The notes beneath the pieces are model-generated. The model did not search any database, had not been told where the DNA came from, and saw only the letters and a list, made by a program, of their open reading frames with translations. The translations under genes were made by a program, and so were the position numbers. Below are positions 23,534-24,695 of a stretch of DNA of 64,000 nt, piece by piece. Numbering within the stretch: the first letter of the stretch is position 1; each line of letters opens with the position of its first letter. This DNA comes from an uncultured Sphingomonadaceae bacterium. Its GTDB lineage: Bacteria; Pseudomonadota; Alphaproteobacteria; Sphingomonadales; Sphingomonadaceae. The stretch spans positions 124,001-188,000 of the forward strand of contig CAIQHF010000036.1 of NCBI GenBank assembly GCA_903871605.1. The letters are read 5' to 3'.

Positions 23534-24025
23534 CATCCTCCCTCGCCAGGGGGAGGTGGCGCCCGCAGGGCGTCGGAGGGGGAGGACATCGATGCGCCTC
23601 GGAGGTTCGCAAAGCGGCGCGCGAAACGCCAAGCGCCTGCGTCAGCAGATGACGCCGCCCGAGATCGCGCTGTGGCTGGCGCTACGCCGCAACTGCGCCG
23701 GCCTGCGCTTTCGGCGCCAGCATCCGGCCGGCGACTATGTCCTCGACTTCTACTGCGCCCCCGCGAAGCTCGTGATCGAGATTGATGGCGAAGCGCACAA
23801 TCGCGGCGACCGCCCGGCACGCGACAAGACTCGCGACGCTTGGCTTGGCTCGCGGGGCCTGCAGGTTCTGCGCTATCCGGCCGGCGATGTGCTGTCGAAT
23901 CTCGACGGCGTGGTTCGCCAGATAAGGATCATCGCGGCCGAGCGCCGGAACGAGATAGCGGGCCGACCGCCGTCCGCCCCCTCCGTCAGCCTGCGGCTGC
24001 CACCTCCCCCTGGCGGGGGAGGATG
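23534..24025. mobile_element. Putative inverted-repeat-bounded element carrying a DUF559 nuclease gene
   Basis: The outer 27 bp at each end (23534-23560 and 23999-24025) are inverted repeats with one mismatch, each an internal palindrome around gccagggggaggtggc. The single gene inside has its Shine-Dalgarno sequence in the left repeat and its stop codon in the right repeat. A short copy with the same ends and no gene lies at 24557-24695. Mobility is inference; no target-site duplication was established. Confidence 0.5.
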
Positions 24026-24026
24026 A
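23592..24026 (+). CDS. DUF559-domain protein (Vsr-like PD-(D/E)XK endonuclease fold)
   Basis: A 144-residue protein. The core reads [13 protein letters not shown], then [19 protein letters not shown], then [11 protein letters not shown], giving the D...ExD pattern of the DUF559/Vsr nuclease fold, and ends [21 protein letters not shown] cleavage or nicking is expected but no specific substrate is known. I prefer the ATG at 23592, with ggggagg upstream; the longer reading to 23517 translates the palindrome. The final residues ([12 protein letters not shown]) are encoded by the right-hand repeat, so gene and repeat have evolved as one unit. It lies just beyond the clpX terminator. Confidence 0.85.
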
Positions 24027-24046
24027 TGATCCTCTATAAGTGGTGG

Positions 24047-24501
24047 TTAGCGGATCGTCTGCTTCCGGAGAACCGCCGCCCGCATAATCGCTAACCAGAG
24101 TAGGACTATCAGGGTGTAGGGCAACCATGCCCACCCATACCAACCGCGTGGTGCTGCGATCTCTTCCTCGATCAGGAAGAGAGCAAGGAAGGCCGGTACA
24201 GCCGCGCAGACCGTCACCGCAACGCTTGTGATAGGCCGGTCACTCCGCCACGCTGCCATGTCGATTGGACTTGCCCAACACCGTGTACAGAGCCACGTAA
24301 TGAGGCCCACAGCCGGCGCGACGAGCGCGGCCAGTACTGCGCTCTCGAACATCGGAATGATAATCGAGTCAGCGTCAGGCGAGAGAACACCTGCTTCAAG
24401 TACCGCGGGCCAGTAAAGCCAACTTGTAAACGGAAGACCGAGCACAAAAAAAGGCTGAGCACCCAGATCCACTTTGCTGAGAGCCGCAGCTTCATGCTCA
24501 T
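24047..24501 (-). pseudogene. Small four-helix membrane protein gene, apparently frameshifted at a T7 run
   Basis: Two overlapping reading frames look like one gene. From the ATG at 24501 the frame gives MSMKLRLSAKWIWVLSL, then meets seven T residues (24452-24446 on the minus strand). Past the run the other frame continues FFVLGLPFTSWLYWPAVLEAG to the stop at 24047. With one extra T the product would be about 150 residues with roughly four hydrophobic segments and a C-terminal RKQTIR. The intact downstream part could also start at a GTG at 24472, giving 141 residues. I do not recognise a family. The DNA is visibly less GC-rich than its surroundings, which suggests transfer. A sequencing error in the run is possible. 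Confidence 0.55.
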
Positions 24502-24556
24502 GCCACCATCATACCGCTATTTAGCATGTCCGCAACTGGGCGAAAGCGGCACCCTT

Positions 24557-24695
24557 CATCCTCCCCCGCCAGGGGGAGGTGTCGCCCGCAGGGCGTCGGA
24601 GGGGGCGGGTGGCGAGACGCTTTCGATCGCAGGCCTGTCGTCAACTTCCCCTCCGCCACGCTTCGCGTGCCACCTCCCCCTGGCGCGGGAGGATG
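24557..24695. mobile_element. Short gene-less copy of the DUF559 element ends
   Basis: The first 27 bp (24557-24583) and last 27 bp (24669-24695) are inverted repeats, and both match the ends of the element at 23534-24025. The similarity on the left extends about 50 bp. Only about 85 bp separates the ends and no gene fits, as in a non-autonomous derivative. It sits in the 321-bp gap before lon; the rest of that gap shows no gene. Confidence 0.5.

Follow-up and report, generated by a model that had tools for sequence, protein, structure and literature searches.

A small gene of the DUF559 family lies in this DNA between two inverted palindromic repeats, close to a second pair of the same ends that encloses no gene, and the locus raises the question of whether the encoded nuclease spreads the repeats or gene and repeats have come together in some other way. 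DUF559 is still called a domain of unknown function in Pfam, and BoxC/PIT repeats, to which the repeats of this locus are compared below, were found in Escherichia coli in the 1990s. The window, as we call the whole stretch of 64,000 nucleotides that was analysed (G000:C36:124001-188000), comes from a genome of 4.28 Mb and probably carries one copy of a dispersal system that resembles REPIN/RAYT and is driven by a nuclease of the Vsr fold. Sequence comparison finds gene and repeats paired, co-diverging, and co-occurring; it also finds units with sharp ends, several near-identical units within one genome, sites filled in one genome and empty in another, and purifying selection on the nuclease. 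The original prediction of a nuclease-driven dispersal of palindromes is supported by the flanking repeats, by the co-occurrence, and by the insertion-site differences, and it is the enzymatic step that we infer.

A nuclease gene and a gene-less doublet with shared ends

Both units lie between two ORFs that we take, by eye from their translations, to be clpX and lon. The left repeat of the gene-bearing unit spans about 52 bp of the forward strand (23534..23585) and reads as a pyrimidine tract Y (CCTCCCTC, 23537-23544), a loop (GCCA, 23545-23548), a purine tract R1 (GGGGGAGG, 23549-23556), a further small hairpin (about 23560-23572), and another purine tract R2 (GGAGGGGG, 23575-23582) that mirrors R1. 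Within this repeat, a G-rich Shine-Dalgarno-like stretch (23580..23586) is followed directly, five bases on, by the ATG at 23592, the start codon chosen for an open frame that extends further upstream. The DUF559 gene (23592..24026, forward strand, 144 amino acids), recognised as an ORF with a PF04480 match and a fitting predicted fold, runs into the right repeat (23977..24025, reverse strand; R2 at 23977-23984, hairpin at 24003-24022), an inverted copy of the left repeat that encodes the last residues and whose end overlaps the stop codon TGA (24024-24026). As originally claimed, the gene takes its Shine-Dalgarno-like stretch from one repeat and its stop from the other, and the outer 27 bp of the left end (23534-23560, CATCCTCCCTCGCCAGGGGGAGGTGGC) differ by a single base from the reverse complement of 23999-24025; the repeat itself, at about 50 bp, is longer than the 27 bp first described. 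The internal palindromes noted at the time were located as hairpins within every end of both units (23537-23556, 24003-24022, 24560-24579, and 24673-24692). The outer two bases of the DUF559 unit are AT on both sides.

The gene-less unit, a REPIN-like doublet at 24557..24695 to which no strand is assigned, begins 531 bp beyond the DUF559 unit and consists of an inverted repeat pair around an unrelated spacer. Its ends, 24557-24583 and the reverse complement of 24669-24695, differ by two bases and enclose exactly 85 bp, in agreement with the approximate length given before. Relatives with about 70-82% identity over most of its length occur at many places in genome G005. The earlier comparison of the pair to an autonomous element and its derivative, as in REP/RAYT systems, holds for the shared ends and the REPIN-like form of the doublet; the derivation of the gene-less copy from the gene unit by internal deletion was rejected, the spacers being unrelated by eye. 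Between the units, an ORF on the reverse strand (24047..24472, 141 amino acids) looks by eye like a membrane protein and returned no match in a Pfam search, and elsewhere in genome G001 a stretch has 66% DNA identity to it; the ORF is probably a separate passenger or insertion.

The encoded protein has a predicted Vsr-like nuclease fold

The window protein matches Pfam DUF559 (PF04480, E 1.7e-29) and, besides, only weakly MTES_1575 and DUF2726. Its AlphaFold2 model (pLDDT 88, pTM 0.76) resembles Neisseria gonorrhoeae ngo0050 (3hrl, E 2.7e-6) and the catalytic domain of the homing endonuclease I-Bth0305I (3r3p, E 7e-5), both of which were also returned by a profile search, and resembles E. coli Vsr weakly (E 0.15). 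Profile match and predicted fold together place the protein among the DUF559, PD-(D/E)XK Vsr-like nucleases, so that the fold first proposed for it finds support in the model, more from ngo0050 and I-Bth0305I than from Vsr itself. Asp-52, Glu-63, Asp-65, and His-69 (window numbering) are among the residues invariant over 51 family members. Selection on the nuclease is purifying: of 11 pairs of coding sequences, nine were usable, and their dN/dS is 0.06-0.30. No gap alignment preceded the comparison of these nine, two of which have saturated dS; the pairs L040-L055 and L074-L098 were discarded for unaligned frames. An anti-phage role was considered and rejected, the DpdF match in 28 of the 51 members and three rarer matches all being weak.

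E. coli YcjD is listed among PD-(D/E)XK members with a match to Vsr (PMC1189080), and Caulobacter VsrA, a member of the same superfamily as the very-short-patch-repair endonuclease Vsr and itself the bearer of a DUF559 domain, has been reported as indispensable to the SOS response in a mutant that lacks a methyltransferase, a result that the authors read as mismatch repair; a second Vsr-like gene is described there as having no effect. Segments that combine a transposase with DUF559 have been reported as recombination hotspots during experimental evolution of Legionella (PMC12308824).

Pfam found no DDE transposase in the protein of the unit, and because this protein matches DUF559, with weak MTES_1575 and DUF2726 matches besides, the system stands outside the RAYT and DDE-type IS families by its enzyme. 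The nearest functionally characterised fold, by the model, is that of a homing endonuclease, and one paper counts a DUF559 gene among the EDxHD homing endonucleases (PMC9403480), the family of I-Bth0305I. Both observations favour the main rival to a dispersal system, namely that the nuclease cuts pre-existing repeat doublets, that homologous repair copies the gene into them, and that the repeats spread by other means. The likeness to I-Bth0305I lies in the fold alone, and 3r3p was deposited as a mobile intron protein, whereas the gene studied here is free-standing, enclosed by inverted repeats, and accompanied by gene-less units elsewhere.

The repeats have the layout of BoxC/PIT triplex motifs

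In the window and in its relatives, a pyrimidine arm is followed by a complementary purine arm and then by a second purine tract that mirrors the first. Of the 162 sides of 81 scored DUF559 loci, 119 have such a Y-R hairpin; there, R1 and R2 stand in a mirror relation with at most one mismatch in 112 cases and exactly in 72, an exact direct copy occurs in 39, and an exact complement in 4. Shuffled tails gave an expectation of 29.8 mirror matches within one mismatch against the 112 observed, the best hairpin per side having been picked by fit, which favours matches, and the shuffle having been made without that choice. Mirror symmetry described the tracts better than direct repetition on 54 sides and worse on 16, with 49 ties; given the near symmetry of many tracts, only 70 sides decide the comparison.

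Pyrimidine arm, purine arm, and mirrored second purine tract are the layout of the BoxC/PIT motif (TM_ECO) of E. coli, and judged by this architecture the window repeat belongs to that known triplex-motif class, which had not been named before for this locus. The likeness extends to inverted pairs, present among E. coli BoxC/PIT motifs and window-type repeats alike, and to the tracts GGGAGAGGG..GGGTGAGGG, common to the E. coli motif and the D-type repeat of relatives of the window. A survey of 2015 describes the E. coli motifs as intrastrand-triplex repeats, counts G/C-rich triplex motifs of one class over more than 260 genomes, links the repeats to genome instability in E. coli, and reports triplex formation in vitro together with a failure to find footprint support in vivo; it also states that activities providing mobility were never found in the gene contexts of the motifs (PMC4666352). 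A term search of its text returned neither "Vsr" nor "endonuclease". Compared with that survey, the present analysis connects these motifs with DUF559/YcjD and extends the class by further repeat families. In the open-licence literature searched, no report of the pairing of DUF559 with these repeats was found; repeat and enzyme were each already known.

Some variants of the layout were also seen. The third tract is placed outside the hairpin at three Deinococcus plasmid loci (L368-L370), in the reverse of the order found in relatives of the window; at two of the three, the inverted repeats have scores of about 50 or higher. A DUF559 locus of Legionella anisa (L245) stands out by the length of its inverted repeat (score 125), which is of another sequence type.

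DUF559 genes lie between inverted repeats in several phyla

A PF04480 profile search of 60 genomes, that of the window included, gave 99 places in 43 genomes, with 12 in G007 and 5 in the genome of the window (G000). Flanks were scored at 81 of the 99, the others being second gene pieces, fragments, domains in very long proteins, contig ends, or places not fetched (e.g. G050:C3). An inverted flanking pair with a score of at least 18 was present at 56 of the 81 loci and in 1 of 1745 control windows matched in geometry and taken at the same loci; these controls, together with repeat patterns read backwards, rule out chance or composition as the source of the pairs. All of the flanked loci are canonical (56 of 70, leaving 14 at which an inverted pair was not detectable), whereas none of 11 loci of a paralogous GSAIVDF/GSAVVDF subfamily is flanked. 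Since the repeats are palindromic, direct matches also occur, with a direct-orientation score of at least 18 at 26 of the 70 canonical loci and a direct score exceeding the inverted one at 9 of the 56 flanked ones.

The non-flanked subfamily (L072, L075, L081, L085, L087, L094-L096, L099, L101, and L111) occurs in the family of the window. Twelve proteins carry its motif; L102 was not counted, since the domain scored there is canonical and the motif sits in the second one, which leaves 11. As judged by eye from the alignment, its active-site motif is changed, and its members are possibly domesticated, non-cutting relatives.

A second, named set was drawn with a profile of the "FWNN" clade, as the best 80 of 545 loci, 2 of which had too little flank. 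Inverted pairs flank 62 of the remaining 78 as against 2 of 787 controls, the direct score being the higher in 13 of the 62. These 62 flanked loci among the best 80 of 545 come mostly from Alpha-, Beta-, and Gammaproteobacteria; the titles Marinimicrobia, Gastranaerophilales, Doudnabacteria, Anaerolineales, and Syntrophales occur with one record each. Inverted scores of 48.5, 20.5, and 57 were obtained for three copies on Deinococcus plasmids and a score of 63 for one Pseudanabaena copy; a Picosynechococcus locus has direct flanks, and at the Synechocystis B12 locus, with a score of 12.5, a clear pair was not found. Flanking repeats are present on most DUF559 genes elsewhere, as the original prediction would have it, and by this comparison several bacterial phyla have a DUF559 gene between two inverted hairpin repeats of the BoxC type.

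Repeat type follows enzyme type

Across genera, protein similarity and repeat similarity are correlated (Mantel rho 0.23, p<=0.001; 58 loci, 1340 pairs, 0 of 999 permutations as high). Sorting the repeats by fixed patterns into families A, B, and D assigned a single family at 50 of the 70 canonical loci. For 34 of these 50, the nearest protein in another genus has the same repeat family, against a null of 16.6+-3.7 and a maximum of 31 in 5000 shuffles, and the protein clusters are likewise sorted by repeat family (14/14 A, 11/11 B, 6/6 B, 14/18 D, and one single B). This match of enzyme type and repeat type suggests, at the level of sequence, that the enzyme spreads these repeats. A strict rule joining A-clade genes to A repeats is broken by G002, G005, G010, and G020, which hold many family-A repeats without an A-clade gene, and was rejected.

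The three patterns were then counted over the same 60 genomes that had been searched for PF04480. At least one repeat match was present in 37 of 37 genomes with a canonical gene and in 1 of 23 without (Fisher p 1.6e-15), canonical status having been assigned by hand and the gene of G004 being a partial match; with two repeats per gene set aside, the counts are 26/37 and 1/23 (p 4e-7). The Spearman correlation for this co-occurrence is 0.84. Backwards patterns served as a control that for pattern A is sometimes nonzero (e.g. 13+13 in G021), and 34 of the 37 genomes with a canonical gene exceed it as against 1 of the 23 without, while G004, G014, and G016 have one repeat match each and do not. 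The one exception among genomes without a canonical gene, G008, has no DUF559 match but 23 repeat matches in a fragmented assembly of 880 contigs with 7% contamination. Kinship is allowed for only by a split into the family of the window (30/30 versus 1/6) and genomes outside it (7/7 versus 0/17). The repeats are not equally common in genomes without DUF559, an outcome that would have told against the prediction.

In their palindromic repeats, gene-less inverted doublets, and many dispersed copies, as in a nuclease gene flanked by its own repeat family and co-diverging with it, these systems share the anatomy of REPIN/RAYT. This general likeness, together with the presence of CGTC inside three of the four window repeats, is what speaks for regarding the repeats as ordinary REPs moved by a Y1 (HUH) or other transposase, with DUF559 hitch-hiking. 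REPs are defined by a tag, GTAG or CGTC, that is conserved at one of their ends (PMC3733652). In the repeats studied here, such a tag is neither constant nor absent: 19 of 116 repeat strings, at 14 of 58 loci, contain CGTC or its complement, and 4 of 116 contain GTAG or its complement. The systems studied here differ from REPIN/RAYT by the third, mirrored purine tract and by an enzyme that is a PD-(D/E)XK Vsr-like nuclease and not an HUH/Y1 transposase. A transposase survey, which covered the Y1 family, found matches in 7 of the 38 genomes that carry repeats, leaving 31 without any, and in 4 of the 22 that carry none, and the genome of the window has no match to the Y1 profile (PF01797). With neither a match in the window's own genome nor an association with the repeats, the Y1 transposase was rejected as the mover, and clade-specific pairing with DUF559 also argues against ordinary REPs, which we consider a very improbable account.

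Units are dispersed, and their sites differ between genomes

G007 holds four units that are 90-94% identical, one with an internal stop, in which similarity stops near the repeats and gives way to unrelated DNA; two of the four share about 40 bp more on one side. In G009, two units are 96.5% identical, and similarity again ends near the repeats. Among 40 doublet stretches fetched from G005, G010, and G025, 28 are full pairs with sharp ends and unrelated flanks, and 12 of the 20 family-A stretches of G005 show one hairpin or none by the pattern used. The 18 family-A pairs among the 28 all carry AT as the outer two bases on the left, and 15 of them do so on the right. Inverted doublets are here dispersed as units, as in REPIN/RAYT.

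Sites that are filled in one genome and empty in another were found in several places. The clpX-lon matches lie 78 bases apart in G002 and G009 as against about 1.2 kb in the window, and the flanks of another unit of the same genome, L041, lie 22 bases apart in G001, which has no DUF559 match and no match to the three repeat patterns. Of two Deinococcus plasmids, with genes identified by product names, that of NW-56 has a unit separating hpaE from an oxidoreductase gene, two genes that overlap in D. proteolyticus; the D. proteolyticus plasmid carries its unit beyond the oxidoreductase gene, at the place where a VOC gene directly adjoins in NW-56. These three junctions provide the insertion-site differences that the prediction called for; as species-level comparisons they show absence and not one clean event, because some of the places carry other inserts too. 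No target-site duplication was established at the sites compared, and for one G005 doublet the flanking genes were not conserved in an empty-site comparison. As a separate observation, a stretch of about 78 bp (gctcctgcggaagcaggagc...) in the L041 region (G000:C26, query 490-575) recurs at many places on both strands in G000 and G006 and looks like another, separate repeat family.

The ends shared by gene units and doublets also speak for homing of the gene into pre-existing repeats. Against it stand the spread of the doublets, for which homing gives no account even though the repeats go with the nuclease gene, and the two G007 units that share about 40 bp beyond the common end; we regard it as unlikely, if still the main rival. 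The possibility that DUF559 is a structure-specific or mismatch repair nuclease of the host, which processes stalled folded repeats and whose own gene is regulated by the flanking ones, would account for purifying selection, for the mismatch-repair interpretation given to VsrA in the passages available, and for the reported instability linked to the repeats in E. coli (PMC4666352). The marks of a mobile element, namely dispersed multicopy units (12 matches in G007), patchy presence, filled and empty sites, and packaging in inverted repeats, make this host function improbable and leave a dispersal system driven by the nuclease as the reading that we prefer.

A proposed mechanism for nuclease-driven dispersal

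The proposed system would have two parts, a small Vsr-fold nuclease of the DUF559/YcjD family and the nuclease's own family of palindromic Y-loop-R1...R2 repeats, which in principle could form an intrastrand triplex when single-stranded. A nuclease gene between two inverted repeats would be the autonomous unit, and two inverted repeats with a short spacer, as at 24557-24695, the non-autonomous REPIN-like unit on which the nuclease would act in trans. The nuclease may recognise the repeat once folded, probably while the DNA at a replication fork is single-stranded, and cut at the repeat ends (AT|CCTCCCC in family A), after which host replication or repair would copy the unit to a new site. Recognition, cutting, and copying, by or after the nuclease, are steps that we infer. 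The joining step would come from the host, because to our knowledge no ligation or strand-transfer activity is known for this fold.

For bacteria at large, we give an even chance to the proposal that DUF559/YcjD proteins are the missing spreading enzymes of BoxC/PIT-type triplex repeats, reading folded DNA (a hairpin plus a third strand), with each clade having its own repeat family in gene-carrying and gene-less units. If this is true, DUF559 gains a role, and a nuclease of the Vsr or homing type joins the enzymes that spread repeats; if the joining is plain homing, the system is less new. With BoxC/PIT tied to one small nuclease family, the question of how these repeats spread can be tested in E. 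coli K-12, which carries ycjD.

The E. coli counterpart: ycjD and BoxC

YcjD is the DUF559 protein of E. coli, and its gene was found in 3365 of 5426 genomes, with clear repeats downstream of it only. A 44-base repeat query matched 5377 genomes with a median of 19 places at a loose limit of E 10. In a spread sample searched with ycjD plus its repeats, 37 ycjD-positive genomes had 15-30 places (median 23) and 22 ycjD-negative chromosomes 2-23 (median 6; p 4e-9), 1 plasmid row of 60 having been left out; this difference is confounded by phylogroup, because ycjD has been reported from groups A, B1, and C, as well as from two more STs (PMC12817139).

The alx locus holds a full doublet in a ycjD-positive strain and a remnant hairpin in EC32, one of a group of strains with a shorter site; NEBExpress, a derivative of BL21, has other DNA there and no doublet, BL21 itself carrying ycjD. 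The difference in EC32 is, from the sequences, best explained by a deletion between two direct GGGAGAGGG tracts, and the alx site was for that reason rejected as a new insertion. In BL21, ycjD lies between sapF and fabI, and in three E. coli genomes without ycjD the efflux genes of the eef operon follow sapF; in this interval (L256-L260), one site is occupied either by ycjD or by the eef efflux operon, as PMC12817139 also describes.
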